NCBI GenBank assembly: GCA_017427065.1
Contig: JAFRTL010000012.1
Coordinates: 1 to 64,000 of the forward strand
From: Bacteroidaceae bacterium
GTDB taxonomy: Bacteria > Bacteroidota > Bacteroidia > Bacteroidales > Bacteroidaceae
Length of the DNA stretch: 64,000 nucleotides
Direction of reading: 5' to 3'
Below the pieces are notes generated by a model that was not told where the DNA came from, did no database searches, and was given only the letters and a program-made list of their open reading frames with translations. Shown piece by piece: positions 2,289 to 46,757 of this stretch (positions are counted from its first letter, which is position 1; every line of letters begins with the position of its first letter). Both the position numbers and the translations under genes were made by a program.

Positions 2289-2540
2289 CCGACCTCATTT
2301 TTGGAGCGTTTAAAAAATCGTAAGCGTTTTCGGAAAAGAGGGGTGCACCAACAAGAGCGCGAAGCGGTCGTCTTGCGCCCCTCCCGAAATATCGTGCAAA
2401 TGAGTGCAAAAACAAGCTTGCTTGTATTTGCCGAATGCAGCCGATATTCATGCTCCGTAAAACGTGAACGATTTTTAGTGGAAAAAATGCAGTCGGCGTG
2501 TTTCTTTGGTTCGTTTCTTTGCACGAGCAAAGAAATGAAT
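2289..2540 (+). repeat. Family-1 structured intergenic element (copy E1, core type A) with nested family-2 insert
   Basis: The head is CCGACCTCA (2289-2297) and the closing GTCGG is at 2492-2496. The inner core is GAGGGGTGCACC to TCTTGCGCCCCTC. The accessory hairpin TTTCTTTGC-ACGA-GCAAAGAAA lies at 2514-2535, and the copy ends TGAAT. Between CCCGAAA and AACGTGAACG it carries an extra family-2 unit (2389-2447) that is absent from copies E3 and E5. The element fills most of the 335-base gap between the HU-like gene and the smalltalk gene. Confidence 0.85.
2389..2447 (+). repeat. Family-2 structured repeat nested in E1 (divergent copy)
   Basis: It is closed by ATATCG/CGATAT. The interior keeps GTGCAAA, AAGCTTGCTT and GCAGCC but has its own inner stem, GCAAAAACAAG pairing with CTTGTATTTGC. 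It interrupts a family-1 element that is uninterrupted elsewhere. Confidence 0.75.
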
Positions 2541-2571
2541 AAAAAAATTTAAACCTTAAACCTTAACCACT

Positions 2572-2679
2572 ATGAAAAACAAGAAAGAACTTTTGAAGTA
2601 CGGCATTCAGCTATTGATAGCTATTCTCACTGCCATTGGAACCTCAATAGGCGTATCATCCTGCATGAGTATGCTGTGA
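2572..2679 (+). CDS. Smalltalk-family small protein
   Basis: A 35-residue ORF with a Lys-rich start (MKNKKELLKYG), a hydrophobic stretch (IQLLIAILTAIGTSIGV) and then SSCMSML. This matches the pattern I recall for the Bacteroidales 'smalltalk protein' family, tiny proteins encoded next to HU-like genes. One membrane-spanning segment is plausible. The Cys near the C-terminus is unlike a lipoprotein box because nothing would remain after cleavage. It lies 335 bases after the HU-like gene, behind a family-1 element and AAACCTT heptads, and is followed by an excellent terminator. Function is unknown. Confidence 0.8.
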   Translation: MKNKKELLKYGIQLLIAILTAIGTSIGVSSCMSML

Positions 2680-2687
2680 AAACAAGA

Positions 2688-2730
2688 AATCCCGATGCAT
2701 CATTAATCTTGCATCGGGATTCTTTATTTT
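2688..2730 (+). terminator. Rho-independent terminator after the smalltalk gene
   Basis: A perfect 12-bp stem, AATCCCGATGCA / TGCATCGGGATT, with a 10-base loop is followed by CTTTATTTT. Confidence 0.9.
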
Positions 2731-2747
2731 ACTTCACTTCTGTCAGC

Positions 2748-3257
2748 TCAATGCATTTTATTCATTTGGCGGATATAATCAAGTTTGGCTGCAGCCCATG
2801 CATTGTCGCCTGGAAGCTGGTAGCGGCAGTTGCCTGAAGGTGAAGGGATGAATGCTTTATAGGATGACGATCGGTCCATGAAATGTCGGAGATGACCTGC
2901 TCGGGTTGATAATGCACCTGGTGCCCAACTTCTCCGGGCGAGAACATCATGTCGACGTCTTCGGGCCATAGGTGGAAGAATGTCTGGGTATACTCACCCC
3001 CCTGAACGAAGTTGTATTCCGAATCGGACAAATGGCCGAAGTTGCCGCCCATTATATAGATGCATCTCCATGGCGAAAAGGTCGTCGGTGGAGGAGCAGA
3101 TATCAACGTCGAGGATAACCCGTGGCACGCCTGTCTGCTCCCATGGTATCTGGTAGTCATCATCCTCTGAACATGATGTGAGCGCAAGGAGGCCCACCAA
3201 AAGCAGGGCGATGACTCTTATGATTCTGAAAGGTAGTATTTGGCAATCGTATCTCAT
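2748..3257 (-). pseudogene. Degenerate nucleoside hydrolase-like lipoprotein gene
   Basis: Frame 1 begins MRYDCQILPF with a signal and lipobox (LLALTSCSEDD). It continues with GVPRVILDVDICSSTDDLFA, which resembles the N-terminal Asp-rich ribose/Ca site of inosine-uridine nucleoside hydrolases (usual form DxDxxxxDD). The reading then jumps frame to YIMGGNF...EYNFVQGG and EQVISDISWTDRHPIK, and again to SPSGNCRYQLPGDNAWAAAK near the end. About 165 recognisable residues remain of the 330-350 expected. Two internal deletions with frame changes are the simplest explanation. The family call is moderately sure and the broken state is clear. It lies directly downstream of the LRR peptidase gene on the same strand. 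Confidence 0.7.
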
Positions 3258-3259
3258 TA

Positions 3260-6200
3260 TTAATGCATTCCTATCTCACTTGATGGATAGTCATAAATAA
3301 TAGGAGGCGCACCAAGCTGACTGGCATCAACGTTGGCTGCACTCTTCTCCACATAATTCCTGGTCTGAGCTTCATTGGCTATGCGCTCCAAGTTCTTCTT
3401 GTCGTATGCCAAGAAATCTTGGAAGGTGTAACTCTCACCAGCCAATTCCATGATGTGCTTATAGATGGCCCAACGGCTGGGGGCGTTAAATATGGCAGTA
3501 GAAGAACTACCCCTCATAATACTGGTTTCTGTAGCTCTATAAATGCCCTTAGAATAACGAGACAACGCTCCCTCATATATACCTATTCTCTCTACGTCAT
3601 AATCATGATTCTGGATAAAATCTTTCCAAAGCACTTTCGTTGGATCTTTTTCCGTATCTACGTTCATAGACCAACCACGATTATGACTTGATTCTAATGA
3701 ACCTGAATAAATGCTATTGCCAGTAGGATCATCAGCAGTATATTCATCTGCCAGTTTTGCAAAACCATGACCTCCAACTTCATGACGAAGTGTTCCATCC
3801 CTTCCAACCTCTGTCAATCCTGAAGAATAACCATCGCTGTTCCAACTACAATTTGCCCTACTATAAGTACCCTCATTGTTCAGCAAGATGATAGCTGAAA
3901 CATCTTTTAAGTCGCCATTAAGTTCTGGCACTTTTCTTACATATTCTGCGATTTTTGTTCTATTGGTTAAATACGTTCCTCCACCTAGCATATCATCTTG
4001 CTCACCATTCTTAGTCTCAAAAATGATATCTTCATCTATAATTTCATTTTTCGAAACAGCAGTTACTGAATAGACATCAAAATAATCTTTGAAAGTAGTA
4101 TATGGCTCTATACCGAAGAAGGCTTCTATTGCCCAACTCACAGCTTCATCAAATGTGCCATTAGCTATTAACCTATCAGAAAAAGCGTCGCCTGTTATGA
4201 CAATAGTGATACCATTTCCCTTAGTATGGCTTAGCCATTTCTTGACTTGTCCGTCTGCAGAGAAATCGGAAGATTCATAAAGCCAGCCGTATTTTAGGCG
4301 ATAGCCAGATTGTTGCTTAATATTAAGGCCATTACTAATATTCTTCCACCAATCAGATTTAAGCAATGTTTCTGAAAGAATACCATCCATCTGATTTCGG
4401 CCTATATATAAACCTTTCAAGTTTTGTAAATTAATAAAACTATCAGGTATTGTTCCTGTCAGATTATTAAATTCAAGGTTTAAATATTCTAGATTAATTA
4501 AGTTTGCAATACTTTCTGGTATAGAACCTGACAATTGATTGCCTGCCATTTCTATTGTATGCATATTGATAAGATTACCAATGCTTTGGGGAATAGATCC
4601 TGTCAATTGATTGTCAGAAAGAAGCAGGTATTCCAAATATATGAGATTACCAATACTTTCTGGAATAGAACCAGATAATTGATTGTGACGTAAAACGAAA
4701 TGTTTAAGATTTGTAAGACTACCTATGCTTTCTGGAATAGAGCCTGATAGTTGATTATTTTCAAAATTCAAGTCTCCTAAGTTCTTAAGATTTCCAATAC
4801 TCTGAGGGATAGTACCTGTTAATTTATTATCCCTCAGAGTTAAATACATAATATTAACAAGATTCCCTATACTGACAGGTATATTGCCAGTAAACTGATT
4901 AAATGAGAAGTCTATAGTACTCAGATTCACAAGATTACCAATAGTTTCTGGAATAGAACCCGACAATTGGTTATAATAAAGATAAAGGCATTCTAATGCC
5001 ACAAGATTGACTAGAGTTTTTGGAATAGAGCCTGATAATTGATTTGCACCTAGCTCAAGATCTCTCAATTTTGATAAGTTACCAATGCTTTCTGGAATAG
5101 AACCCGACAACTGGTTACGATTAAGATATAAATACTCCAAATTCGCAAGGTTGCCAATACTTTCTGGAATAGAACCCGACAACTGGTTATTACCCAATTG
5201 TAAATACCTTAAATTAGTAAGTGAACCAATACTTTCTGGAATCGAACCTGACAATTGATTATTACTCAATCGTAAATACCTTAAATAAGTAAGTAAATCA
5301 ATACTTTCTGGTATCGAACCTTTTAATCCATTATCATTTAAATCTAAATTATATACATGTCCTCTATCGGTCCAAACCCCATACCATTCTGAGAGAGGTT
5401 TATCACTTCCCCAATTCTCTTTATTCTTCCAATTAGCGCCATCAGTAGAATTATAAAGATCCATCAAGGCTTGTCGCTCCCTCATTATTTCATCAGCCTC
5501 TTCTTTAAGGATGGCATCTGTATCAAGGCCAGTAAAGGTCTTAATCATGGCGCGTCTTACATCTACCTCCTTATCCGTCTTCTTCTCTATTGAGAACTCT
5601 TCATTCGTAGTGGGGTTAGTCCCATAAATGTAGAGCGTGAGACCCTTTTCATAAACGCCCACAGGCACTATGAAATAGAAATCGGTATTCTCATCGGCAT
5701 TTAGTTGCAAATCCCGTGGCCACATATCTATCGAAGAGCGCCAAGTGTCTTCTTCATCAGGCACCATCTGAAGAATAGGATTATCTTGGGATATGTCTAT
5801 AATGCCTTCTCCTGTGATCATCTCACCATTGTTGACCTGCAGACGAACTCGTTCAATGATATTCGTTCCCTTCAGTGAGAAGCGAATCAATCCACAGGTT
5901 TGTTTGAACTTCAGGTTATTGTCCGTACTCTTTGCCACCATGGGTAAAGGACGGTTATAGCTATCTACCGTATAGCCAATACCACCCCAAAGATTCACAT
6001 GAATGATATTTCTGTTGTCGGGATCTATGGCATTATCTCTGTATGGATAAAATGCATAAAAGGTATTACCAGAAATAGACCCTCCTGAAAAAACAGATTC
6101 TTGATAGCGGTATTCTTTCACATCCTCAGTGTCACTGTATACCCCTATCCAATCACCTTCATCCCACACCACTTGCTTGCCACCTTCCAAGTGTGAGCGG

Positions 6201-6334
6201 GTGATGCCTATATCTGCAATGCTTGCCGTAAAGGAAGAAAAAATCCTCCCTTCTGCCATTTGCTCAAGTTCCTCATCATAACAGCCTGTAAGGATAAGCG
6301 TTGATGCCAATAATGTATATAATATCTTTTTCAT
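3260..6334 (-). CDS. Secreted lipoprotein with plant-type LRRs and M64-like metallopeptidase domain
   Basis: A 1024-residue surface or periplasmic lipoprotein (lipobox LILTGCYDEE). Residues about 30-275 resemble a fimbrillin/Mfa-type beta domain, a tentative call. An N-cap (ALMDLYNSTDGANW...WYGV) precedes 13 tandem 24-residue leucine-rich repeats, about 340-652, of the plant type (GSIPESIGNLxNLxYLxLxxNQLS). The C-terminal part, about 690-990, resembles IgA-peptidase family M64. It has HEVGGHGFAKLADEY at about residue 851, and later EGALSRYSKGIYRATE and SIMRG. The HE and next His are separated by three residues rather than two, which should be checked against the family. It is the second gene of an operon, 19 bases after the BACON lipoprotein. 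Likely role: binding and cleaving host or dietary glycoprotein. Confidence 0.75.
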   Translation of the reverse strand: MKKILYTLLASTLILTGCYDEELEQMAEGRIFSSFTASIADIGITRSHLEGGKQVVWDEGDWIGVYSDTEDVKEYRYQESVFSGGSISGNTFYAFYPYRDNAIDPDNRNIIHVNLWGGIGYTVDSYNRPLPMVAKSTDNNLKFKQTCGLIRFSLKGTNIIERVRLQVNNGEMITGEGIIDISQDNPILQMVPDEEDTWRSSIDMWPRDLQLNADENTDFYFIVPVGVYEKGLTLYIYGTNPTTNEEFSIEKKTDKEVDVRRAMIKTFTGLDTDAILKEEADEIMRERQALMDLYNSTDGANWKNKENWGSDKPLSEWYGVWTDRGHVYNLDLNDNGLKGSIPESIDLLTYLRYLRLSNNQLSGSIPESIGSLTNLRYLQLGNNQLSGSIPESIGNLANLEYLYLNRNQLSGSIPESIGNLSKLRDLELGANQLSGSIPKTLVNLVALECLYLYYNQLSGSIPETIGNLVNLSTIDFSFNQFTGNIPVSIGNLVNIMYLTLRDNKLTGTIPQSIGNLKNLGDLNFENNQLSGSIPESIGSLTNLKHFVLRHNQLSGSIPESIGNLIYLEYLLLSDNQLTGSIPQSIGNLINMHTIEMAGNQLSGSIPESIANLINLEYLNLEFNNLTGTIPDSFINLQNLKGLYIGRNQMDGILSETLLKSDWWKNISNGLNIKQQSGYRLKYGWLYESSDFSADGQVKKWLSHTKGNGITIVITGDAFSDRLIANGTFDEAVSWAIEAFFGIEPYTTFKDYFDVYSVTAVSKNEIIDEDIIFETKNGEQDDMLGGGTYLTNRTKIAEYVRKVPELNGDLKDVSAIILLNNEGTYSRANCSWNSDGYSSGLTEVGRDGTLRHEVGGHGFAKLADEYTADDPTGNSIYSGSLESSHNRGWSMNVDTEKDPTKVLWKDFIQNHDYDVERIGIYEGALSRYSKGIYRATETSIMRGSSSTAIFNAPSRWAIYKHIMELAGESYTFQDFLAYDKKNLERIANEAQTRNYVEKSAANVDASQLGAPPIIYDYPSSEIGMH

Positions 6335-6353
6335 TGCTCTGATTATTTAAGGT

Positions 6354-7598
6354 TTACCATTCTTGCTTTTCATTTCCGAAATCCTCGTTACCGTTGGTGA
6401 AGCTCTGCTTCTTCACAGTCACTTGGCATTCTGCATTTGTGCGCCCATTGTCTGCCTGGACATATATGTTGACTGTGCCTTCATTTCTAGCCGTCACTAA
6501 TCCATTTTCATCAACATAAGCAACCCATGAGTTCTGGCTATACCACTGCAGTTCTTTATTGTCAGCATTTGTTGGAGCGATAGTTGCCTTTAATTGGGCG
6601 GTATCTCCTACATACAACTCCAGAGAGGTCTTGTTCAGTTGTAATTCTGAAACATAGATAAATCCACGCTGCTTGATAGTAATTACTTCAGAAACCCCAT
6701 CTCCACTAATAGTAATAGTAGCAGTACGACTATCTGTCGAATAATTGGCTGCCACAACAAAAGACAATTTGTTTTTCTGCAAGGCTCTGGTATCAGCCCG
6801 ATTTATCCATCCAGAACTGATGTCGACTGAATAATCTACGTTGGCTTCTACATCCACTTCGATAGTCTCGCCACTTACTGAAACATTGAATTCTTTCTGT
6901 GAAACTAAGATCGCGTCTTTTTGGTTTTGAATAACCACTATTTTATCACTTAATTCATACTCTTGGTTAACAAACACTATTTCAATGCTTCTCTGATCAT
7001 ATCCGTCATTGGAGGCTATAGTAAATGTAAATGTCTGATTTGATGTAGATGATGAGCTCTGAGAGATCCAATTGTTATCTGGCATTTCAACAGTCAGATC
7101 CATATTGGTCTTTACAATCACGCTGATATCTCCACCATCAGACCCTATTTTATACTCTTTACTATCCAACGTTAAAAATGGCTCACCTTTCTCCTGAGAC
7201 ACACTGATGGTTTGGCTTGCTGTTCCACTTTTAATGATAATATTAGACTCACGGTTTTTTAATGTCTCATTCTTATTTCCCTTAATTGTCAATGTATACC
7301 GCCCAGCGTTACCACTGGAAGGAGATACACTTATCCAATTTGCATCTTCAGAATTAGACACACTGGCCGTCCAGGCCTGAGTGGATGTAAAAGTCACGGT
7401 AGCGACCCCGCCTTCGGAATTAAAAACAGGTTTAGTGTTCTCTGTCTCTGGGATTTCAATCTTTGCAGCGACAGGAGTTGGCGTCGGCGTAGGTGTGGGG
7501 GTTGGTGTCGTGGGGTCATCATCTCCACCACATGAAGAAATAGAAAATGCTATCAGGATGGATAGCAGAATTGTTTCTGTAAGTCTGAGTGTTTTCAT
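6354..7598 (-). CDS. BACON and Ig-like (Big2) domain lipoprotein
   Basis: A 414-residue exported lipoprotein (lipobox FSISSCGGDDD) with a (Pro-Thr)n linker at residues about 28-42. It then carries three BACON-type beta-sandwich modules, about 60-135, 140-228 and 230-312, each with the typical WISVSPSSG or NWISQSS-like turn and a closing ITVxQ/TIKQRG strand. A Big2-like Ig module follows at about 318-395 (LNKTSLELYVGDTAQLKATI). BACON modules usually mediate binding to mucin or carbohydrate. It is the first gene of an operon with the LRR/M64 lipoprotein and probably works with it at the cell surface. The promoter is at 7652-7683. Confidence 0.8.
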   Translation of the reverse strand: MKTLRLTETILLSILIAFSISSCGGDDDPTTPTPTPTPTPTPVAAKIEIPETENTKPVFNSEGGVATVTFTSTQAWTASVSNSEDANWISVSPSSGNAGRYTLTIKGNKNETLKNRESNIIIKSGTASQTISVSQEKGEPFLTLDSKEYKIGSDGGDISVIVKTNMDLTVEMPDNNWISQSSSSTSNQTFTFTIASNDGYDQRSIEIVFVNQEYELSDKIVVIQNQKDAILVSQKEFNVSVSGETIEVDVEANVDYSVDISSGWINRADTRALQKNKLSFVVAANYSTDSRTATITISGDGVSEVITIKQRGFIYVSELQLNKTSLELYVGDTAQLKATIAPTNADNKELQWYSQNSWVAYVDENGLVTARNEGTVNIYVQADNGRTNAECQVTVKKQSFTNGNEDFGNEKQEW

Positions 7599-7651
7599 AT
7601 TAGGTATATGGTCACAAAGTTATTGTTATGATAAAAGTATGTCTTATTTTG

Positions 7652-7683
7652 CAAATGTAGTATTTTAGATAGAAATACCCAAG
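7652..7683 (-). promoter_or_regulatory. Promoter of the BACON/LRR lipoprotein operon
   Basis: On the minus strand the -7 box is TACATTTG (complement of 7652-7659). The -33 position reads CTTG, one base off consensus, with 20-base spacing. Confidence 0.55.
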
Positions 7684-7738
7684 CGGAATGACGATTTTTG
7701 CAAAATGCACTATGGCTGAGCTGGTTTTTTTTACCACC

Positions 7739-7762
7739 GCGTTGCAGCGTTGCGCGTTGCAA
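7739..7762. repeat. 24-bp palindromic repeat, copy 1
   Basis: GCGTTGCAGCG followed by TTGCGCGTTGCAA, with internal pairing TTGCA-GCG-TTG-CGC-GT-TGCAA. The identical 24 bases recur at 11639-11662 and 16718-16741. This copy lies about 20 bases upstream of the rho -33 element. Confidence 0.85.
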
Positions 7763-7780
7763 CGAATTTTTTGATATTTA

Positions 7781-7812
7781 TTTGGTAATTTATAGGTTTG
7801 TTCGTACCTTTG
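7781..7812 (+). promoter_or_regulatory. rho promoter
   Basis: TTTG at 7781-7784, a 20-base spacer, and TACCTTTG at 7805-7812, a close match to the Bacteroidales sigma consensus. Confidence 0.8.
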
Positions 7813-7905
7813 CATCCGAATTAAGAAAACATCAATCAGTCACCGTCCGTTGTGACTTCATTTTTAAATTCAATCCCGAATAAATAACACATTACTTTTT
7901 AATGT

Positions 7906-9879
7906 ATGTACAACAAAACTGAATTATTAGACAAAGAACTGTCTGAACTAGAAGTTATTGCCAAAGAATTGGACATTAAGAAAATCAACAGTTTATCGAA
8001 AGAAGCCTTAGTTTATGAGATATTAGATAAGCAGGCAGAGGTGCGTGCCAACGACAAGGCTCAGAAAGAAGAGGCCAAGGCCGCTAAACCTAAGCGCCAG
8101 CGTATCAAAAACACTACCGACAAAGTGTTCTCGGCCAACAAGAATGGGGAGCTGACAAAGCAGGAGGCACCTGCTGCCGTGAAGCCTGCTGTTCCTGAAG
8201 CTCCAGCTGCCGAGCCTGCTCCAAAGAAGGAGGAGGTGAAGGCGAAGCCTGCGGAGAAGAAGGAGGCAAAGCCTACGGAGAAGAAGGAGGCTGTGAAAGA
8301 GCCTGAGGCCACGACCACGGCAACCAAGAAGCGCGGCAGACCTAAGAAAAACGAGGAGGAGGCCGAGAAGGCTGCTCCTAAGGCTGAGGAAAAGGTGGAG
8401 CCTAAGCGTGCAAAGGCAGAGGAGAAGCCTGCTCAGGAGGAGAAGCCTGCACCTAAGGTGCATGTGAAACTGACGGAGATGGTGGATGATTTCATCCCTA
8501 TCGAGGATCTGCCTGACGGTGAGCCTACCGAACTGCCTGCCGAACTGAAGGAGAAGTTCGAAGCTACGCGCAAGAGGGCTCAGCAGGCGGCGATGAACAA
8601 GACTGAGAGGTATGAGCGTGTGGAGCGTCAGGAAAGACCTGAGCGTAAGGATCGTCCAGAGCGCGAACCAAGGGCACGCATTTCCAACGTACAGTATGAG
8701 AATGCTCCTCAGCCACAACCTCAACCTCAACCTCGCACCAAGATGCGTCCTTATGAATTCAACGATATTCTTTCGGGTGGCGGCGTGTTGGAGATCATGC
8801 CTGATGGCTATGGCTTCCTGCGTTCATCCGACTATAATTTCCTCTCTTCTCCTGACGACATCTATGTGTCTCAGTCGCAAATCAAGCTCTTCGGTCTGAA
8901 GACGGGCGACGTGGTGGAAGGTGTGATCCGTCCGCCAAAGGAGGGTGAGAAGTATTTCCCACTGGTGAAGGTTTCGCAGATCAATGGCTTGGATCCGCAG
9001 TATGTGCGCGACCGTGTGCCTTTCGAGCACCTCACCCCACTCTTCCCTGATGAGAAATTCATCCTGTGCCGTAACGACGGAAGTGACAGCCGTTCGGCCC
9101 GCGTGGTGGATCTGTTTACACCGATCGGTAAGGGTCAGCGTGCACTGATCGTGGCTCAGCCAAAGACTGGTAAGACAACCTTGCTGAAGGACATCGCGAA
9201 TGCCATCGCGGCCAACCATCCCGAGGTGTACATGATCGTGCTGCTGGTGGATGAGCGTCCTGAGGAGGTGACGGACATGGCACGCACCGTGAATGCGGAG
9301 GTGATTGCCTCTACGTTCGACGAGCCTGCCGAGCGTCACGTGAAGATAGCCAACATCGTACTGGAGAAGGCAAAGCGTCTGGTGGAATGTGGCCATGACG
9401 TGGTGATCTTCCTCGACTCTATCACACGACTGGCGCGTGCGTACAACACCGTTCAGCCGGCATCGGGCAAGGTGCTCTCTGGTGGTGTGGATGCCAATGC
9501 GCTGCATAAGCCAAAGAACTTCTTCGGTGCGGCTCGTAACATCGAGAATGGCGGTTCGCTGACCATCATCGCTACGGCTCTGACGGAGACGGGCTCCAAG
9601 ATGGACGACGTGATCTTCGAGGAGTTCAAGGGTACAGGCAACATGGAGTTGCAGCTGGATCGCTCTCTGAGCAACAAGCGTATCTTCCCTTCCATCAACC
9701 TGGTGGCTTCAAGTACGCGTCGTGACGATCTGCTGCAGGATAAGGTGACGCTGGACCGCATGTGGGTGGCTCGCAAGATGCTGAGTGACATGACCTCCCT
9801 GGAGGCTATCAACACCGTGAACCAGCTGATGGATAACACGAAGGACAATTATGAGTTCTTGGCAAGTATGAACAGTTAA
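7906..9879 (+). CDS. rho: Transcription termination factor Rho
   Basis: A 657-residue hexameric RNA-dependent ATPase that ends transcription. The N-terminal Rho_N SAP-like helix bundle is about residues 1-45. A Lys/Glu/Ala/Pro-rich segment follows (about 45-200), then an Arg/Glu-rich stretch ending REPRARIS and an (QP)n run (about 210-280). The RNA-binding cold-shock domain is next ([23 protein letters not shown]). The ATPase domain has Walker [13 protein letters not shown], Walker [17 protein letters not shown] and the Q/R-loop regions. E. coli Rho has about 419 residues, so some 220 are inserted, as is usual in Bacteroidetes. The insert is likely disordered and may bind RNA or phase-separate (inference). 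The ATG at 7902 is rejected because its frame closes after six codons. Confidence 0.98.
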
Positions 9880-9882
9880 TCA

Positions 9883-11377: not shown

Positions 11378-11561
11378 ATTCATTTCTTTCGCTCGTGCGA
11401 AAGAAACGAACCAAAGAAAGCACGCCGACTGCACTTCCGCAGCTAAGATTGCTTCGTTTTTCACTAAGCGCTGCAAGACGACCCCCTTCGGGGCTCTTAT
11501 TGGTGCAGCGCTCTTAACGTGAAAACCTCGCAATCTCTTCACGCTGCTCCAGTGAGGTCGG
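11378..11561 (-). repeat. Family-1 structured intergenic element (copy E2, core type B)
   Basis: Read on the minus strand: CCGAC...GTCGG closing stem; AGATTGC/GCAATCT; TTTTCAC/GTGAAAA; AGCGCTGCA/TGCAGCGCT; apical AAGAgCCCC-GAA-GGGG..TCTT. The accessory hairpin TTTCTTTCGC-ACGA-GCGAAAGAAA faces the ffh stop codon, 43 bases away. Confidence 0.85.
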
Positions 11562-11638
11562 AATCTTTGGGGCGACATCGCTTCGCTCGTTGTGCGCTTT
11601 ACGCTAACTTGACTATATGCTGACATGCTAGTAACTAT

Positions 11639-11662
11639 GCGTTGCAGCGTTGCGCGTTGCAA
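11639..11662. repeat. 24-bp palindromic repeat, copy 2
   Basis: Identical to 7739-7762. It lies in the centre between two oppositely oriented family-1 elements. Confidence 0.85.
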
Positions 11663-11727
11663 GTAATTTTGCAAACGCTTAAATACTTAATAATAGAGCG
11701 CCTTTACAATACTGAACACCCCCCTAT

Positions 11728-12016
11728 CCGTCCTCACATCTGGAGCGTGAAGAAAATCGGGAAAGTTTTCGGAAAAGAGGGGTGCACCAATAAGAGCGCG
11801 AAGCGGTCGTCTTGCGCCCCTCCCGAAAACGTGAGCGATTTTTAGCGGAAGATGTGCAGACGGCGGCGCTTCTTTTGGTTCTTTTTTTTGCAAGAATACA
11901 GGCTACACCTCAGCATAGCTCAAACTAGCTTGACTCTGCATTCGGTTTGCACTGTATTTCTTCGAGCTGTAGCGAAGAAAAGAATGAGTAACTTTCGCAC
12001 GAGCGAAAGAATGAAC
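11728..12016 (+). repeat. Family-1 structured intergenic element (copy E3, core type A) with nested family-2 insert
   Basis: The closing stem here is CCGTC/GACGG instead of CCGAC/GTCGG, a compensated change. Next come AAAATCG/CGATTTT, GTTTTCGG/CCGAAAAC and AGGGGTGCA/TGCGCCCCT. A second hairpin, TTCTTCG...CGAAGAA, is separated from its usual neighbour by the family-2 insert at 11895-11958. The tail hairpin CTTTCGC-ACGA-GCGAAAG ends 25 bases before the folD start. Confidence 0.85.
11895..11958 (-). repeat. Family-2 structured repeat nested in E3
   Basis: On the minus strand it is closed by AATACAG/CTGTATT around GTGCAAACCGAATGCAGAG...GAGCTATGCTGAGGTGTAGCC. The equivalent point in copy E5 (near 13320) is uninterrupted. 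Confidence 0.8.
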
Positions 12017-12932: not shown

Positions 12933-13112
12933 ATTCGTTTCTTTGCTCGTGCAAAGAAACGAATCAAAGAAACACGCCGACTGCATTTTTTCCGCTAAAA
13001 CTCACTCACGTTTTTCTAAGCGCCGCAAGACGGTCGCTTCGCTCACTTTGCGGTGCGGCGCTTTTAACGAAAAACATTCCTGAGTTTCTACACGCTGCAA
13101 AAATGAGGTCGG
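12933..13112 (-). repeat. Family-1 structured intergenic element (copy E4, core type B')
   Basis: Minus strand: CCGAC/GTCGG; AAACTC/GAGTTT (other copies have AATCG/CGATT or ATTGC/GCAAT here); GTTTTT/AAAAAC; AAGCGCCGCA/TGCGGCGCTT; apical GAGCGAAGCGACC. The accessory hairpin TTTCTTTGC-TCGT-GCAAAGAAA (plus-strand reading) lies 9 bases after the folD stop. Confidence 0.85.
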
Positions 13113-13166
13113 ACTAGGCTGCGCGATATATCATCATACGCCCCATCACATTGTAACACCCCCTTT

Positions 13167-13380
13167 CCGGCCTCACATCTGGAGCGTGAAGAAAATCGGG
13201 AAAGTTTTCGGAAAAGAGGGGTGCACCAATAAGAGCGCGAAGCGGTCGTCTTGCGCCCCTCCCGAAAACGTGAGCGATTTTTAGCGGAAGATGTGCAGTC
13301 GGCGGCGCTTCTTTTGGTTCTTTTCTTCGAGCTGTAGCGAAGAAAAGAATGTTTCTTTCGCACGAGCGAAAGAAATGAAT
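13167..13380 (+). repeat. Family-1 structured intergenic element (copy E5, core type A, uninterrupted)
   Basis: The head CCGGC pairs with GTCGG through one G-T wobble. The stems AAAATCG/CGATTTT, GTTTTCGG/CCGAAAAC and AGGGGTGCA/TGCGCCCCT match E3. Two adjacent tail hairpins follow: CTTTTCTTCG...CGAAGAAAAG and TTTCTTTCGC-ACGA-GCGAAAGAAA. It ends 11 bases before the CapA-like start codon and serves as the empty-site reference for E1 and E3. Confidence 0.85.
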
Positions 13381-14522: not shown

Positions 14523-14524
14523 TA

Positions 14525-17474: not shown

Positions 17475-17660
17475 ATTCATTTCTTTTGCTCGTGCAAAAG
17501 AAACGGAATCAAAGAAAACACGCCGACTGCATTTTTTCCACTAAAAATCACTCACGTTTTCCTAAAGCGCGAAAACTCGCAAGCTCCGCTTGCTCAAACA
17601 GCCCGCGCTTTTTAACGGAAAACTTTCCCGATTTTCTTAACGCTCCAAAAATGAGGTCGG
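17475..17660 (-). repeat. Family-1 structured intergenic element (copy E6, core type C)
   Basis: Minus strand: CCGAC/GTCGG; AAAATC/GATTTT; GTTTTCC/GGAAAAC; AAAGCGCG/CGCGCTTT; apical GAGCAAGC-GGA-GCTTGC. The accessory hairpin TTTCTTTTGC-ACGA-GCAAAAGAAA (minus-strand reading) precedes the SGNH hydrolase start by 28 bases. Confidence 0.85.
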
Positions 17661-17770
17661 ACCAGGCTACGCACAGCACGGAGTTTATAGTCATCTCCCT
17701 CTCTCAGTCTTCCCCATGGGGGGTAGATAAAGAGGGGTAGCAACGAGCAAAGCAATGTTGTGTCAAATCT

Positions 17771-17952
17771 CCGACCTCACTGGAGCAGCGTAAAGAGATT
17801 GCGAGTTTTTCACGTTTAAAGCGCCGCACCAATAAGAGCCCCGAAGGGGGTCGTCTTGCGGCGCTTAGTGAAAAGCGAAGCAATCTTAGCTGCGCAAGTG
17901 CAGTCGGCGTGTTTCTTTGATTCGTTTCTTTTGCACGAGCAAAGAAATGAAT
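17771..17952 (+). repeat. Family-1 structured intergenic element (copy E7, core type B)
   Basis: Its core AGCGCCGCA/TGCGGCGCT differs from E2 (AGCGCTGCA/TGCAGCGCT) by one compensated base pair. Other stems are AGATTGC/GCAATCT and TTTTTCAC/GTGAAAA. The accessory hairpin has one unpaired base (TTTTGC vs GCAAAG). The tail ends 7 bases from the helicase stop codon. Confidence 0.85.
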
Positions 17953-40010: not shown

Positions 40011-40027
40011 ATTTCAATTCTTATTCA

Positions 40028-41812
40028 TTAATTTTCAATTTCACTCAATTCCAACCACCGCATAGACTTTTCATCCAACTCTTCATTCAGCGTTGGTAGG
40101 CGTTTTGATTTCTCTGTCAACTCCTCCACGCTAAGTTTTCCACTGCACAAAGCAACCTCCAAGCCTTTCTTTTCCTCCTCTAATGCAGCGATTTCCATCT
40201 CAAGCTGCTCCATCTCACGACGCTCCTTGAAAGTTAGTCGCCGCTGACTATTCTCCCGTTGACGCCAAGAAGAAGCCTGAGGTTTCTCATCCCGTAGTTT
40301 TTCTTGTTCTCTATCATGCCTCAGTTTCTCTTCTTTCCAAGTCCTGTACTGTGTATAGTTACCAGGGAAGTCACGAATATCACCCTCCCCATTGAAAACC
40401 AGTAAATGGTCCACCACTTTATCCATAAAATAGCGATCGTGACTCACCACAATCAAGCACCCTCCGAAGTTCTTCAGATACTCTTCCAGTACATTCAGTG
40501 TGATGATGTCCAAATCGTTGGTAGGCTCATCCAAAATCAGGAAGTTAGGATTACGCATCAATACCGTACAGAGATACAATCTCCTTTTCTCCCCACCGCT
40601 GAGTTTATACACATAATTATATTGTTGCTCAGGAGTGAAAAGGAAATACTGCAAGAACTGCGAAACACCCAACTTTTCTCCGCCACCAATATCAACAACT
40701 TCAGCAATGTCTCGCACCACATCTATCACCTTCATCTGCTCATTGAAATGCAAGCCATCCTGAGAATAATAGCCAAAACGCACCGTTTCACCAATATCCA
40801 GATTCCCTTTGTCGGGTTGTATCTGACCTAATAGAATCTTTAGAAACGTCGATTTACCAGTTCCATTATTACCTACAATACCCATCTTCTCATAACGGGC
40901 AAAGATATAGGAAAAATCATCCAGAATTTTCTTATCTCCGAACGACTTATAGAGATGATCAGCTTCAAAAATCTTTTTGCCAATGTAAGCAGATTTTACT
41001 TCCAGTCTCACATTCCGTTCATCAAACCGTTGTTTGGCCACTTTTTCTAGCTCATAAAACGCTTCTTCGCGATAGCGAGCCTTGTGTCCTCGCGCCTGAG
41101 GCATTCGTCGCATCCATTCCAACTCTGTACGATACAAGTTATTCGCTCTTGCCACCTCCACTTGCTTGGCATCCAGTCGTTCCTGTCGCTTTTCCAAATA
41201 GTAGCTATAGTTGCCCTGATAGGCATACACCCTTTGTGCATCTATTTCCAAAATATCGGTACAGAGACGATCAAGAAAATAGCGATCATGCGTTACCATT
41301 AGCAGACTTACCTTGTTCCTTTTCAGATAATCCTCCAACCACTCTATGACTGAAAGATCCAAATGGTTCGTAGGCTCGTCCATCATTAGGAAATCAGGAT
41401 CAGAGAGCAAGGCACTCGCTAATGCTACACACTTCTGCTTGCCACCCGAAAGTTCAGCGACTATCTGATGAAAATCCGTTATACCTAATTGTGTAAGTAG
41501 TTGTTTTGCACGCAGTTCCTCTTCCTCACCACAGATCATCCTACTGCATGCCTGCCATACAGTTTCTCCCTCATGAAACACTGGAGTCTGTGGCAAATAC
41601 CCCACCTTTACATCTTTTCTAAAAGTGATTTTCCCTTCATCTGCACTATCCAAACCCGCCAATAATCCCAGCAAAGTACTTTTTCCGCAGCCATTCCTGC
41701 CAATGAGCCCCACATGCTGTCCTTCTGTCATTCCAAAGCTCACATGCTCAAATAGCAGCAGGTCGCCAAACGACTTGCTCAGATTCTCGACTTGCAGTAT
41801 AGGGATTGCCAT
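40028..41812 (-). CDS. ABC-F family ATPase (Uup-like)
   Basis: A 594-residue soluble protein with two ATP-binding cassettes and no membrane segments. Cassette 1: Walker A GLIGRNGCGKSTLLGLLAG, signature ELSGGKQKCVALASAL, Walker B FLMMDEPTNHLDLSV. Cassette 2: GIVGNNGTGKSTFLKILLG, signature KLSGGEKRRLYLC, Walker B LILDEPTNDLDIITL. The interdomain linker is about 230-300 (YYLEKRQERLDAKQVEVARA). The C-terminal coiled coil (EMEQLEMEIAALEEEKKGLE) is Uup-type. ABC-F proteins act on the ribosomal E site. Uup-like members affect stalled complexes or DNA-associated processes rather than transport. It starts 6 bases after the DUF3805/DUF3806 gene. Confidence 0.94.
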   Translation of the reverse strand: MAIPILQVENLSKSFGDLLLFEHVSFGMTEGQHVGLIGRNGCGKSTLLGLLAGLDSADEGKITFRKDVKVGYLPQTPVFHEGETVWQACSRMICGEEEELRAKQLLTQLGITDFHQIVAELSGGKQKCVALASALLSDPDFLMMDEPTNHLDLSVIEWLEDYLKRNKVSLLMVTHDRYFLDRLCTDILEIDAQRVYAYQGNYSYYLEKRQERLDAKQVEVARANNLYRTELEWMRRMPQARGHKARYREEAFYELEKVAKQRFDERNVRLEVKSAYIGKKIFEADHLYKSFGDKKILDDFSYIFARYEKMGIVGNNGTGKSTFLKILLGQIQPDKGNLDIGETVRFGYYSQDGLHFNEQMKVIDVVRDIAEVVDIGGGEKLGVSQFLQYFLFTPEQQYNYVYKLSGGEKRRLYLCTVLMRNPNFLILDEPTNDLDIITLNVLEEYLKNFGGCLIVVSHDRYFMDKVVDHLLVFNGEGDIRDFPGNYTQYRTWKEEKLRHDREQEKLRDEKPQASSWRQRENSQRRLTFKERREMEQLEMEIAALEEEKKGLEVALCSGKLSVEELTEKSKRLPTLNEELDEKSMRWLELSEIEN

Positions 41813-41818
41813 CTTCTT

Positions 41819-42625
41819 TTAGAGTATATCTTTATAAATCTCCACTAAGTTCACCTTCTCGCCAGCTTTCACACGACTCCAAACCAACTTCATCGGGTCT
41901 ATCAACGTCAGTTCGTCGTCCACACTTACCATCACTGGAGCTTCCCGATTGCCATCCACCAAAGTGCGCCATTCCATACCTTCCACTTCGTTGGCTAATA
42001 TAACACACAACGTGATGCCTAATGCCATCCAAGCATCCCGCTTCTTAGGGTTCAACTTACCACTTTCAACCAGACGCTGCATGTTTTCCACATCCTCTTC
42101 TTCAGCACGGAAGTCCTTTTTCAATAGTTGCTTCACCTCCTCTTGCACCCAATCGAAAGCTTCGTCTATTTGCAAGATTTCAGAAAGTCTCACAGGTATC
42201 ACTTCAGCAGGATACTTTACTCCTAAGCGCCTTACGTGCAGTGATTCTATGATGCCACGAGCCGCATCTACAGGATCGCCCGCTTTTACAGCAAACGATA
42301 TTTCAAACGCCACATCTGCAGCACCCGTCACCCATTGATGGTTTTCATACACCCCATCTTCCTCGGTAAACTGTTCCATGCTGTACGCACAATCCATCGA
42401 TCCTATACGCACGATGCGCGATTGCCTGTTCTCCTTCAGTTCCAAGTCCACACACTCTTTGCCATAGTTTTCATTCCCTCGGAATGCGGAGATGCGGAAA
42501 TTTCCCGTCCATTTATCAGGATTATAAAAGAGGAAGGAACCTTCACCATCCTCAAACTCGCTCCAGTCTACAGGGTACACCATGTCGAACCACGCCCCTG
42601 GCGCTATGAATTTCTTTCCTTTCAT
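41819..42625 (-). CDS. DUF3805/DUF3806 domain protein
   Basis: A 268-residue predicted cytosolic protein without a signal. The N-terminal half (FIAPGAWFDMVYPVDWSEFE, GSFLFYNPDKWTGNFRISAF) matches my recollection of DUF3805. The C-terminal half (KKRDAWMALGITLCVILANE, DPMKLVWSRV) matches DUF3806. Both are characteristic of Bacteroidales, and function is unknown. It heads a likely operon with an ABC-F ATPase and a TlpA-like lipoprotein. The last half is enriched in Glu/Val. Confidence 0.8.
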   Translation of the reverse strand: MKGKKFIAPGAWFDMVYPVDWSEFEDGEGSFLFYNPDKWTGNFRISAFRGNENYGKECVDLELKENRQSRIVRIGSMDCAYSMEQFTEEDGVYENHQWVTGAADVAFEISFAVKAGDPVDAARGIIESLHVRRLGVKYPAEVIPVRLSEILQIDEAFDWVQEEVKQLLKKDFRAEEEDVENMQRLVESGKLNPKKRDAWMALGITLCVILANEVEGMEWRTLVDGNREAPVMVSVDDELTLIDPMKLVWSRVKAGEKVNLVEIYKDIL

Positions 42626-42790
42626 TGTCAGTAGTGAATAATTTGGCGTTAAAATTACGATAAATTACATTGATTTGCAACTTTATGACGGAATAATCTA
42701 TCAGCAGACAAAGACTCTTATTGATTGCCATCTGCATTTATTCGGATTGTTTTTCAGTGTACGAAGTTACGATAATTTCAAAAATAATCA

Positions 42791-42798
42791 TACCTTTG
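42791..42798 (+). promoter_or_regulatory. -7 box of the LMW phosphatase gene
   Basis: TACCTTTG ends 4 bases before the ATG at 42803. A transcript from this box would start at about the A of the ATG. Confidence 0.6.
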
Positions 42799-42802
42799 TC
42801 GT

Positions 42803-43306
42803 ATGGAAAACAAGTTTGAAAAGAAATCTCCACTCTTCAGCATTCTCTTTGTTTGTCTGGGGAATATTTGTCGCTCTCCTGCAGCCGAAGGAATCATGAA
42901 ACAGCAGTTGGAACTCAACGGACTAGCAGACAAGGTGTTTGTGGATTCTGCAGGAATTGGCAACTGGCATGTGGGCGATCTTCCTGATGCACGTATGCGG
43001 GTGCATGGCAACAGACGAGGCTATGATTTCTGCAGTCGTGCTCGCCAGATAAAACGTGCGGATTTCGACCGCTTTGATCTGATCATTGTGATGGATGAGG
43101 ACAATTACGATGATGTCTGCAGCCTGGCAAGAAACGAAGACGACAGGGCGAAAGTGCACCTAATGACGGAGTATCTGAACCGCTACAAAGGCAGACGCAC
43201 CGTGCCTGATCCCTACTATGGTGGTGATGCAGGCTTTGAGTTGGTGCTCGACTTGCTGGAAGACGGGATTGAAGGACTGATAAAACTTATTAAAGAATGG
43301 GCATAG
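42803..43306 (+). CDS. Low-molecular-weight protein-tyrosine phosphatase
   Basis: A 167-residue cytosolic phosphatase. The P-loop [17 protein letters not shown] (C-x5-R-S) is at about residues 16-30. The general-acid loop [15 protein letters not shown] has the Asp-Pro-Tyr. [17 protein letters not shown] is also family-typical. These enzymes often control Tyr-phosphorylated polysaccharide co-polymerases, but no such genes are near. No alternative start exists between the -7 box and the P-loop, so a leaderless transcript is likely. The 3' end overlaps the TerB/DnaJ gene by 10 bases. Confidence 0.93.
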
Positions 43307-44115
43307 GAAAATGGATTGGAGGCGCACTGGGATTCATCCAGTTTGGGCCATTGGGAGCACTGGCAGGATTTGCACTGGGCTCTCTTTTCGACAATATGTT
43401 TGGCAGTACGACCATAAGTGATGGGCAGCCATATGGTGGTGGCACCTATGGCAGTGATACTTATAGTCAGGAGACCTATCGTCAAGACAGCAGGGGACAG
43501 CGCAACAGCTTCCTCTTCTCCATGCTGGTGATGGCGTCGTACATCATCCGTGCAGACAATAAGATCATGCACAGCGAGATGGAGTATGTGCGCCAATTCC
43601 TGCGTGTGAACTTCGGAGAAAATGCAGTGACAGAAGGAGAGCAGATATTGCTCAACCTCTTCGAACAGCGTAAGCAGATGGATGCCCAGAATCCAAATGC
43701 TTTCAAGAATACCATCGCTCAATGTGGTCAGCAGATAGCCATGTACATGAACTACAGCGAACGTCTGCAACTGCTCAATTTCTTGGTGCAGATTGCTAAG
43801 GCTGATGGCAGCGTGGTGACGGAGGAAATCAATGCGCTGAAGGAAGTAGCAGTATCTATGGGGCTCAGCGTCAGCGATGTGGATTCTGCCCTCAGTTTGG
43901 GTGGCACTACGCTCGAAGAGGCTTACAAGGTGCTGGAGATTTCTCCTGATGCTACGGATGAGGAGGTGCGCAAGGCTTATCGCAAACTGGCCTTGGAACA
44001 TCATCCTGATAAGGTGGAGACACTGGGCGAGGATATCAAGAAGGCTGCGGAACAGAAGTTTAAGCAAATCAATGAAGCGAAGGAAATTGTTTACAAAGCT
44101 CGAGGAATGAAATAA
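43297..44115 (+). CDS. TerB-like and J-domain protein (DjlA-like)
   Basis: 272 residues. The N-terminal Gly-rich hydrophobic segment ([20 protein letters not shown]) resembles the DjlA membrane-associating motif. A Gly/Tyr/Ser/Thr linker follows, then a TerB-like helical domain at about 70-190 ([38 protein letters not shown]). The C-terminal J domain is about 205-270 ([25 protein letters not shown] at the DnaK-stimulating loop, [13 protein letters not shown]). It is a likely DnaK co-chaperone at the inner membrane. Translation is coupled to the phosphatase gene through a 10-base overlap. Confidence 0.92.
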
Positions 44116-44121
44116 CGCTAA

Positions 44122-44152
44122 AAATTGAGAATTGAAAATTGAGAATTGAGAA
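44122..44152. repeat. Heptanucleotide tandem tract (AATTGAG/AATTGAA)
   Basis: Four 7-bp units lie between the TerB/DnaJ gene and the GH78-like gene, ending about 20 bases before the start codon. Confidence 0.75.
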
Positions 44153-44173
44153 ATAAACGCTTAACTTTAATAT

Positions 44174-46420
44174 ATGAAAAACACATTGTTACTTACTGGA
44201 GTTTTGGCTATTTGTACTGCTACTCTCCAAGCGCAGACAGCCTTTGATCCGATGCTGGATCCTAATGCAAAGGTTGTGACTCCAGTCGAACAAGAATCTT
44301 GGAACAGCACCTACATGTGGTATCCTGGATTGCTCAGCGCCCACATGCAAAGGGTACAGAAAGCGGCCAGCTATGAGCGCTGTGTGAACGTGAACTATCC
44401 AGGCAACTTTCTGAAAGACAGCAATGAGAGCTACTTCCGTAAGACCGTTCGCCTATCCAAAGATACAGACATCAGTTGGGCTGCTCCTGCCAATCTTACT
44501 CTAACGGTCGATGGCCAAGCAGTAAATACTTCCCAAAACAAATATACCCTAAAACGGGGCACACATACCCTACTCTTCCACATTGCTACAGACGGTCCGC
44601 TTCCTGCCATAATACTGAAAGGTGAAGGCGTAGAAGGCACTGCTGGTTGGCAAGTGAGTCTTGACGGACAGACATGGAACATGCCTGAAACAGACCCACG
44701 CTTTTGCCATCCTGCCACACTACCAGACAGTCCGCAGGAAATCACCGTTCAGTATTTTCCCACTACATACAACTTTTTCCGTAACTGCGAAAAAAAATCA
44801 GACGGCACTCTGGCCTTAGGACGTGAGGGCAAACTCATCGTGGATTTCCACCATCTGGAGATAGGCTATGTGGTCTTCAAGGCCAAGGGACAAGGTAAAC
44901 TCTATGTCTCTGTGGGTGAATCGCCAGAGGAGGTCATTGACGAGCAGACCGTTCGTGAACTACCACGTGGTGCTCAGAGTGACGACGGACTGGGTGAGGC
45001 AAAGTCCTACCTCTATGAACAGAAGAAGATAGACCCGATAGAGCTGACCAGCACAGAAAAAGAATATCGCATGCCACTGATGGCTGTACGCTTCATGGAG
45101 CTGGAGAGCGAATGGGGCGCCACCATCTCAGACATCCGCTTCGATGCCCAAGTGTGGCCTGTGGATTTCCTCATGCAGTTCAACAGCGACAATGAGAATG
45201 TCAACCAGCTGTGGAAGGCCAGCGTTGCCACACTGCACACCTCCATGCACAATTTCTACCTCGATGGTGTGAAGCGCGACTTCCTGCCATGGTCTATGGA
45301 TGCCATCGTGAGCTCATTGGGAGGCGATTACCTGTTTGGCGACCGTCAAGTGGCTCGCAACGGACTCTCCATCGCCTTGATGCCACCCCACCCTTCAAAG
45401 GCAGATTGGGGCATCGTGGACTATCCGCTGCATGCGCTCATCGGCTTGAAGCACGACTATCTGCGCTATGGCGACATCAACACTTCCCTGATGTTCCGCG
45501 ACCGCATCGAGCAGCAGTTGGCCCTCTACGAGAGCGTGCAGGATGAGCGTGGTTTCATCTCCTCCGAGCGTCCACAGAGTGGATTCATCCCTGGATGGAG
45601 CCGCGACATGGGACCAGATTCCTATGGCACACCTTGCTATCCACAAATCATGCTCTATGAGAATTTCCGCATCGCAGCCTATTTCTATCGCCTTTGGAAA
45701 GAGCCTAAGCGAGCTGCCTACTACGACCAGAAGGCCGAATTCTTGCAGAAGAACATTTTTGACCATTTCTGGGACACTACGCAGAAAGCCTTCATCAATG
45801 GCTATCGCTCCGATGGCAGTCGTGATGAGCGCATCTCGCACCATGCCCAGTATTGGAGTGTGATCACAGGCCTCTACCCTGAGCGCCTGCTGGATTACCT
45901 CTACGAGACCGTCATTCCATCCATACCTTATTATAAAGAGAACGTGAGTTACGAGAAAGGCTACGAGATGCTGGCCTATATCAAGGCTGGTCGCTTCAAT
46001 GAGATGTTCAGTCTGCTGGATGAGGTTTGGGGCGACTGGCTCCGTCAAGGTGGCACCCGCTTCCCTGAGAACTTCATGCCACAGCAGCCGTTGAAGAAGC
46101 AACTAGAATTCTATGGTCGTCCTTTCGGACTGAGCCTCTGCCACGGAGCCAATGGTGTCCCAGGAGTAGTGGCCGTCCTGAATGGCATCTTTGGTTTCTG
46201 TCAGAACGACCAGAAACCCAATGAATACACCTTGCGCCCCACCCTTTGGCAGATGACACATGCTGAAGGTCGCATCCCTGTGAAAGAAGGCTTCATCGAA
46301 GTCAATTTCCAGAAGAACGGCACCTCCTCAGTGACCATCCCAGCAGGATGCACAGTAAAGGTTGTGATGAATGGCAAAGTGCAGACCCTGAAGAAAGCAG
46401 GAAAGCACTTTTTAAATTGA
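44174..46420 (+). CDS. Exported alpha-L-rhamnosidase-like glycoside hydrolase (GH78-like)
   Basis: 748 residues with a signal peptide (LLLTGVLAICTATLQAQ). N-terminal beta-sandwich domains cover about 60-330. An (alpha/alpha)6 barrel, about 345-650, contains YLDGVKRDFLPWSMDAIVSS, the counterpart of the 'DG-KRD' acid region of six-hairpin rhamnosidases, and the aromatic/Asp-rich SGFIPGWSRDMGPDSYGTP. A C-terminal beta domain ends in VPGVVAVLNGIFGF...TLRPTL. It is expected to remove terminal rhamnose or a related sugar from plant glycans in the periplasm. GH78 is the best guess; other six-hairpin families are possible. Its stop codon lies within a heptanucleotide tract. First of three glycosidase genes. 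Confidence 0.82.
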   Translation: MKNTLLLTGVLAICTATLQAQTAFDPMLDPNAKVVTPVEQESWNSTYMWYPGLLSAHMQRVQKAASYERCVNVNYPGNFLKDSNESYFRKTVRLSKDTDISWAAPANLTLTVDGQAVNTSQNKYTLKRGTHTLLFHIATDGPLPAIILKGEGVEGTAGWQVSLDGQTWNMPETDPRFCHPATLPDSPQEITVQYFPTTYNFFRNCEKKSDGTLALGREGKLIVDFHHLEIGYVVFKAKGQGKLYVSVGESPEEVIDEQTVRELPRGAQSDDGLGEAKSYLYEQKKIDPIELTSTEKEYRMPLMAVRFMELESEWGATISDIRFDAQVWPVDFLMQFNSDNENVNQLWKASVATLHTSMHNFYLDGVKRDFLPWSMDAIVSSLGGDYLFGDRQVARNGLSIALMPPHPSKADWGIVDYPLHALIGLKHDYLRYGDINTSLMFRDRIEQQLALYESVQDERGFISSERPQSGFIPGWSRDMGPDSYGTPCYPQIMLYENFRIAAYFYRLWKEPKRAAYYDQKAEFLQKNIFDHFWDTTQKAFINGYRSDGSRDERISHHAQYWSVITGLYPERLLDYLYETVIPSIPYYKENVSYEKGYEMLAYIKAGRFNEMFSLLDEVWGDWLRQGGTRFPENFMPQQPLKKQLEFYGRPFGLSLCHGANGVPGVVAVLNGIFGFCQNDQKPNEYTLRPTLWQMTHAEGRIPVKEGFIEVNFQKNGTSSVTIPAGCTVKVVMNGKVQTLKKAGKHFLN

Positions 46421-46448
46421 AAATTGAGAATTGAAAATTGAGAATTAT
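46414..46448. repeat. Heptanucleotide tandem tract (AATTGAA/AATTGAG) overlapping a stop codon
   Basis: About five 7-bp units. The TGA stop of the GH78-like gene (46418-46420) is inside the first unit. Confidence 0.75.
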
Positions 46449-46507
46449 TGTGCAAACCGAATGCAGAGCCAAGCTTGCTTGAGCTATGCTGAGGTGCAGC
46501 CAATAAT
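46444..46507 (+). repeat. Family-2 structured repeat (copy T2)
   Basis: Closed by ATTATTG/CAATAAT around the conserved GTGCAAACCGAATGCAGAGC...GAGGTGCAGC interior. The closing stem sequence differs from T1 and T3 but is fully paired. Confidence 0.8.
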
Positions 46508-46525
46508 CAACGTAGTTAATTATGA

Positions 46526-46553
46526 ATTATTGTGCAAACCGCATGCAGAACTG
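46526..46553 (+). repeat. Truncated family-2 repeat
   Basis: ATTATTGTGCAAACCGCATG followed by CAGAACTGCG; the right half is missing. It lies just downstream of T2. Confidence 0.6.
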
Positions 46554-46574
46554 CGAAAAAGAAAGCATACAGTT

Positions 46575-46757
46575 CCGACCTCACTGGAGCAGCGTGAAGA
46601 AATTTTGTGCTTTTTTCGTTAAGAAGCGCGGGCTGTTTGAGCAAGCGGAGCTTGCGAGTTTTCGCGCTTTAGAAAAAAGGATAAAATTTTAGCTGCGCAA
46701 GTGCAGTCGGCGGGCTTTCTTTGATTCGTTTCTTTCGCCCGTGCGAAAGAAATGAAT
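46575..46757 (+). repeat. Family-1 structured intergenic element (copy E8, core type C)
   Basis: CCGAC/GTCGG; AAATTTT/AAAATTT; TTTTTT/AAAAAA; AAGCGCG/CGCGCTT; apical GAGCAAGC-GGA-GCTTGC as in E6. The accessory hairpin is TTTCTTTCGC-CCGT-GCGAAAGAAA. It ends 36 bases before the GH35-like start. Confidence 0.85.

Follow-up and report, generated by a model that had tools for sequence, protein, structure and literature searches.

A dispersed intergenic element of Bacteroidota with a structurally conserved rod and a pseudoknotted, probably triple-stranded tail

Small dispersed repeats of bacteria are usually taken as simple palindromes left behind by transposases. Integron attC sites conserve structure over sequence, with a variable apex and the end boxes RYYYAAC/GTTRRRY, while telomerase RNA and SAM-II contain triple-helix pseudoknots and some eukaryotic RNAs carry triple helices that stabilise them. 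REP palindromes are described as 20-40 bp in size (PMC3733652), bacterial MITEs are exemplified by BrickBuilt of Porphyromonas and MITECca01 of Cardinium (PMC10969869, PMC9769881), and the guanidine-III riboswitch is an H-type pseudoknot with a triple helix (PMC5696562). According to PMC8040213, 250 of 3161 candidate structured RNAs of the human microbiome are palindromic, some of them mostly or only in Bacteroidetes, and one of these candidates could overlap the core described below. Searches of the open-licence PMC literature (including PMC2267715 and PMC12306157) brought up no title or abstract opening that names an element of the present kind.

The window analysed here is a stretch of 64,000 nucleotides from Bacteroidaceae bacterium (GCA_017427065.1, contig JAFRTL010000012.1, positions 1-64,000, forward strand), and represents contig C9 of a 2.5-Mb assembly that is 83.41% complete. 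It contains an element of about 200 bases, dispersed between genes and made up of a core rod of about 140 nt followed by a tail of about 45 nt. The sequence-only reading had placed nine copies in the window, and all nine positions hold members of the family, namely eight cores, from copies that are whole or nearly whole, and a fragment (1-65) at the contig end. The features are as follows, with the parts of the tail given for the copy at 46574-46757.

1-65 (minus strand): core fragment cut by the contig start (model match 1-64, 39.1 bits), head-to-head with the copy at 2288
2288-2540 (plus strand): copy with core 2288-2497, which carries a foreign insert, and tail to 2540
11378-11562 (minus strand): copy with core 11424-11562 and tail 11378-11423
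11563-11726: spacer of 164 bp within a head-to-head pair, between ffh and folD
11727-12016 (plus strand): copy with core 11727-11864, its tail broken by another small repeat at about 11894-11961
12933-13113 (minus strand): copy with core 12976-13113 and tail 12933-12975
13114-13165: spacer of 52 bp within a head-to-head pair, between folD and the PGA_cap gene
13166-13380 (plus strand): copy with core 13166-13303, followed by two tail hairpins in succession
17475-17661 (minus strand): copy with core 17522-17661 and tail 17475-17521
17662-17769: spacer of 108 bp within a head-to-head pair
17770-17952 (plus strand): copy with core 17770-17908 and tail to 17952
46574-46757 (plus strand): single copy with core 46574-46711 and tail to 46757
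46711-46715 (plus strand): pseudoknot stem S1, 5' strand, CGGGC, with its partner GCCCG at 46737-46741
46716-46723 (plus strand): loop L1, a pyrimidine mirror of the S2 5' strand and proposed third strand
46724-46736 (plus strand): stem S2, 5' strand
46737-46741 (plus strand): stem S1, 3' strand, GCCCG
46745-46757 (plus strand): stem S2, 3' strand

Several other repeats occur in the window. A second small hairpin repeat (GTGCAAACCGAATGCA...GGTGCAGCC) is found at 1541-1592, 11901-11952, 46451-46502 and 51159-51210, where the outer stems vary in sequence and stay complementary; it is inserted into tails of the present element at about 11894-11961 and also at loci L029 and L033. The contig start (117-2236) holds an inverted duplication of an HU-HIG gene, with arms at 226-729 and 1630-2133 that are 95% complementary. 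Because contig C6 has what looks like this stretch at its right end (L022), contigs C9 and C6 probably adjoin each other, or else the assembly was interrupted at the duplication. At 4431-5335, tandem repeats of 72 bp lie within a leucine-rich-repeat protein (3260-6334) that has a peptidase M64-like domain.

A covariance model of the core (R1), built from 13 copies, identifies 36 distinct cores in the source genome (the 37th row repeats one of these on the reverse strand), with best E-values of 6.5e-38 within that genome, where some copies are 92-98% alike. The sequence-only reading did not recognise the family, which indeed matches no Rfam entry: in Rfam 15 the window has no gathering match, five genus-level loci gave only matches far below gathering, eight loci of other families had no match at E 0.5, and no match to the IscB omega RNA/HEARO was obtained among the window and the searched loci.

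For the copy at 46570-46762 the predicted folding energy as RNA is -76.7 kcal/mol (z = -4.75, 200 shuffles), and under DNA parameters z is -5.72; the reverse strand of this copy folds well too (z = -4.56). In an alignment of 29 diverse cores, hand-chosen from about 100, 26 of the 29 base pairs have changed on both sides, 92.7% of the cells are paired as against 63.6% after shuffling, and the covariation score is 0.792 against 0.227, a value reached by 0 of 500 shuffles and approached by no slid version of the structure (at most 0.188). A second alignment of 84 distinct rows, mostly from other families and covering 54 of 57 sources (L154, L166 and L189 being left out), has 90.3% of cells paired against 56.8% and a score of 0.808 against 0.202, figures that lean towards the model since these rows were fitted to R2, a second covariance model used for the wider search, which comprises the core and no tail beyond a few bases. 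Margins of this size, the E-values of the model and the fold of the single copy show that the family is no product of chance. The shuffles and permutations throughout this work ignore the relatedness of the copies. The stem pairs quoted in the sequence-only reading are readable in the window, and its central claim, that pairing is kept while sequence changes, holds in many genomes, with covariation far above the shuffled and slid controls; as the fold is kept in this way, it appears to be the fold itself, and not the sequence, that evolution preserves.

Most rods contain twice an internal loop of the type C[GTNAA]R opposite Y[A]G, and the apex of the core varies in length among copies (both by eye). 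GNA triloops form stable DNA mini-hairpins; an apical GNA triloop is not claimed for the element, as some copies have other triloops. In the stems, G.T occupies 40 cells and A.C 4 cells, a count that is favoured by the structure having been predicted with G-U allowed, and this excess points to the plus strand as the folded strand.

The tail is more than the hairpin that had been described at first, which is real and corresponds to stem S2 only: its segments are arranged in the order S1 - L1 - S2 - S1' - S2', which is that of an H-type pseudoknot, and complementarity is kept in S1 as well. Among 104 copies, nearly all from the same genus (reverse-strand and duplicate rows dropped), 91 tails could be parsed, the other 13 being mainly tails broken by inserts or copies lacking such a tail; five of these copies, in G008 and G029, have no tail of the pseudoknot kind. 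S1 complementarity, summed over the 49 unique combinations, reaches 250.5 where permutation gives 181.4 (sd 6.8; 0 of 500 as high), and 20 of the 49 have Watson-Crick runs of 5 or more, where 6.6 are expected. The variants of S1 include CGTG/CACG, CGGGC/GCCCG, CTTGAT/ATCAAG, CTTGAC/GTCAAG, TGTC/GACA and GGTGGC/GCCACC. Because R2 holds almost none of the tail, the copies found with it test the pseudoknot afresh: in 90 of 97 rows, mostly from other families (four duplicates and three partial hits dropped), an S2-type hairpin is present in 84, the S1 sum over 76 unique tails is 398.0 against 310.7 (sd 7.5; 0 of 500 permutations), and runs of at least 5 are found in 47 of 73 against 27.6 expected.

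Loop L1 is a pyrimidine tract that mirrors the 5' strand of S2, and would therefore run parallel to the purine strand of S2, as a pyrimidine third strand requires. For 32 unique tracts of the genus-level set, the longest-match sum is 263 in the mirror reading (220.9 expected, sd 4.6) and 230 in the direct reading (216.0, sd 3.6), both above all 2000 permutations and the mirror by the larger margin. When only informative tracts are considered, meaning unique ones that reach 7 nt and contain an internal C (27 of 37 in this set), 21 favour the mirror and 0 the direct reading, with 6 ties. In the independent set 20 of the 90 tails are unparsed for L1/S2 and most loops are short T-runs, so that 35 of 46 unique parses are uninformative; the remaining 11 give 7 mirror, 1 direct and 3 ties, and in bulk the direct score (450 against 412.4, sd 6.8) exceeds the mirror score (399 against 358.7, sd 6.1), both lying above all 500 permutations. 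Together, the informative unique tails of both sets favour the mirror in 28 cases and the direct reading in 1, with 9 ties, while 45 of the 83 unique parses are uninformative for this test. The mirror test is thus weaker in the independent set: the pseudoknot is general, and the mirror loop is established for long loops only. L1 may lie in the groove of S2 as a putative pyrimidine triple helix of the telomerase-RNA pattern, and the tail is probably triple-stranded.

The sequence-only reading, which contained neither the pseudoknot, the mirror loop nor the paired arrangement of the copies, had left open whether structure is selected as RNA or as extruded DNA. The G.T excess speaks for the plus strand, and a tail with interleaved stems and a mirrored loop is more in keeping with RNA; all three features suit an RNA pseudoknot that has a triple helix in its major groove, beside which a folded single-stranded DNA form stays as an alternative. 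It is very improbable that no selection on structure is involved and that template switching during replication merely keeps the palindromes complementary. Template switching can yield compensatory changes in simple hairpins, but it leaves the interleaved S1/S2 pairing, the L1-S2 mirror and the recurring internal-loop motif (seen by eye) unexplained, and the S1 permutations, though ignoring relatedness, point towards covariation at S1.

In the source genome, 28 of 37 copies (the 36 cores and the fragment 1-65) form 14 head-to-head pairs with their tails outwards, separated by 20 to 925 bp and, at the window start, by 2.2 kb, and 9 copies are single; in the G003 region, 16 of 21 copies are in such pairs. 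The pairs of the window adjoin ffh, folD, PGA_cap, GDSL-lipase and helicase-like genes, and fill gaps of 707 bp between ffh and folD and 469 bp between folD and PGA_cap. Between ffh and folD, the three closest relatives searched, whose FolD is 93-94% identical, have 46-55 bp, and the 26 of 29 relatives' loci that allow the measurement have 3 to 409 bp, except for two with more than 1,000 bp; the folD-PGA_cap gap is at most 198 bp in 14 relatives' loci (from the first aligned PGA_cap residue). As the same gaps are short in relatives, the pairs either are insertions or were retained in this genome and disappeared from the others. Loss by deletion is suggested by two matching sites at which the element of one species is represented by a remnant in another: the atpG-helicase site, with the element in G021 and a remnant alone in Bacteroides finegoldii, and a site beside an mnmA-like gene (named by eye), where G012 and G009 differ in the same way. 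At L016 (1686-2453) a head-to-head pair encloses a gene for a 255-aa protein resembling uracil-DNA glycosylase (by eye).

No target duplication was detected around 27 pairs, where direct repeats in the 14-nt flanks sum to 96 against 90.6 (sd 4.5; 70 of 500 permutations as high). TAnnTTTG is the promoter motif of Bacteroidota, and no excess of it occurs upstream of the copies (3 against 3.2 shuffled). A cognate gene beside low-copy elements was sought and rejected, the neighbours being ordinary-looking (by eye).

The position of the tails bears on a different reading, unlikely in our judgement, in which the element serves the host as RNA: copies would lie within neighbouring mRNAs, where the triple-helix pseudoknot would block 3' exonucleases, as the stabilising helices of eukaryotic RNAs might suggest, or act as a bidirectional end signal. 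Of the 96 tail-side genes scored for 104 copies, 60 turn their stop towards the element; for 28 of them the stop is 22-63 nt from the core end, which is about the length of the tail, and one tail comes within 1 nt of the stop codon of a convergent gene. However, 36 of the 96 tail-side genes present their start, the copies are patchy (16 of 61 genomes, including the source; 15 of the 16 belong to the same genus), remnants suggest loss, and the neighbouring genes are varied (partly by eye).

With R2 at E <= 1e-5, 30 of the 294 genomes searched at order level carry the element, as do 42 of the 392 sampled across the phylum Bacteroidota (source genome included); the family spans the phylum. A full copy (61.2 bits) occurs in a replicon of Ilyobacter polytropus (Fusobacteriota), in whose record the tail part of the query matches six places. 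In G003 and G026, 15 of 16 and 9 of 9 R1 copies, respectively, gather in clusters of about 80 kb and 86 kb, and 20 proteins picked from these clusters include several encoded by polysaccharide genes as well as HU-HIG, VapE and AAA_14/DUF4143. G541 and G240 have tandem arrays instead of pairs. In one closed genome, units of about 700 bp containing the element stand in tandem at L162 (5795-8130) and L163 (5930-7485), with three element copies at one of these loci and two at the other. In G193, successive copies in the same orientation separate single genes or small gene sets (by eye). From L159 17168 to L160 6483, what lies between same-orientation copies is likewise a single gene or a small set, with an AAA_14-type ATPase by resemblance, toxin-antitoxin-like pairs and a Fic-like gene (by eye).

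The arrangement in G193, the G003 and G026 clusters with their gene content and an apical part that is variable, as in attC, would fit an attC-like recombination site of folded single-stranded DNA that lets cassettes between copies be swapped, a reading which we hold to be improbable, somewhat more so than a host-serving RNA. The copies of the window have ordinary core genes for neighbours (ffh, folD and aspS among them), the attC end boxes are not visible in the alignment (by eye), and a pseudoknot with a mirror loop would be needless for such a site. A cassette array around each copy is ruled out for the window, where the neighbours are core genes.

The search for a mobilising enzyme used the same 392 genomes of the phylum as the element search, taken as one draw. 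Matches to RVT_1, Y1 and TnpB are absent from the source genome (83% complete). RVT_1 is not associated with the element (16 of 42 bearing genomes, 150 of 350 others), nor is TnpB (1 of 42, 21 of 350), and retro-mobility driven by a reverse transcriptase and a TnpB reRNA or guide RNA were each rejected on this lack of association and of a match in the source genome. Y1_Tnp occurs in 33 of 42 element-bearing genomes and in 211 of 350 others (Fisher p = 0.03, genome size uncontrolled), a weak excess which, with its absence from the source genome, led to the Y1 transposase being rejected as the mobiliser. The same excess, and inverted pairs that resemble BIME/REPIN arrangements, could be read as signs of a remnant DNA transposon (MITE or REP) that a Y1 transposase (RAYT) or another transposase moves, and in which the fold matters only as a DNA hairpin. 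This is a little less probable again than a recombination site, because the 36 copies of the source genome and those of G193 occur without a Y1 match, target duplication is lacking and the unit is far longer than a REP.

The best reading, held tentatively and at somewhat less than even chance, is that of a non-autonomous mobile element, a bacterial counterpart of a SINE or MITE, that functions through its plus strand, folded as a single strand and most likely RNA. As no mobiliser is associated beyond the weak excess of Y1_Tnp and no target duplication is seen, mobility is judged from the distribution of the copies, which would move. The plus strand would be transcribed and fold into rod and pseudoknot, with L1 lying in the groove of S2 as a triple helix, and an enzyme supplied in trans would read rod and knot and then copy and insert the element. 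The bolder proposal, that this is the first bacterial SINE-like RNA element, with a telomerase-like triple-helix pseudoknot in the 3' part of its transcript that a putative trans enzyme recognises, is rather unlikely. Since the rod, the repeated internal-loop motifs, the pseudoknot and the mirror loop are kept over the phylum, a specific binding partner is predicted, which would represent a new system of RNA- or single-stranded-DNA-binding mobilisation, or of RNA processing, in bacteria that dominate the gut. Should the triple helix prove real, natural variants matched in all three strands would make a test set for triplex rules.

Compared with known systems, the element shares with integron attC sites a structure kept over sequence, a variable apex and, sometimes, a position between single genes, but it shows no end boxes by eye, is dispersed among core genes and has a pseudoknotted tail. 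With the triple-helix pseudoknots of telomerase RNA, SAM-II and guanidine-III it has in common the H-type order S1-L1-S2-S1'-S2', in which S1 and S2 are interleaved, and a loop able to enter the S2 groove, the mirror match of L1 having the Hoogsteen sense in the informative tails; it differs from them in being a dispersed repeat with a long rod, and its triples are predicted from sequence. Like REP, BIME and REPIN sequences with their RAYT, it is dispersed, intergenic, palindromic and often in inverted pairs, whereas its length of about 200 nt, against 20-40 nt for REP/REPIN, and its complex rod and pseudoknot rule out a simple REP origin, and its source genome is without a Y1 match, which 33 of the 42 bearing genomes sampled possess. 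It resembles the MITEs BrickBuilt and MITECca01 in being short, non-coding, intergenic and arranged in inverted fashion, and is distinguished from bacterial MITEs by the lack of a target duplication around the 27 pairs and by a fold that is conserved across the phylum.
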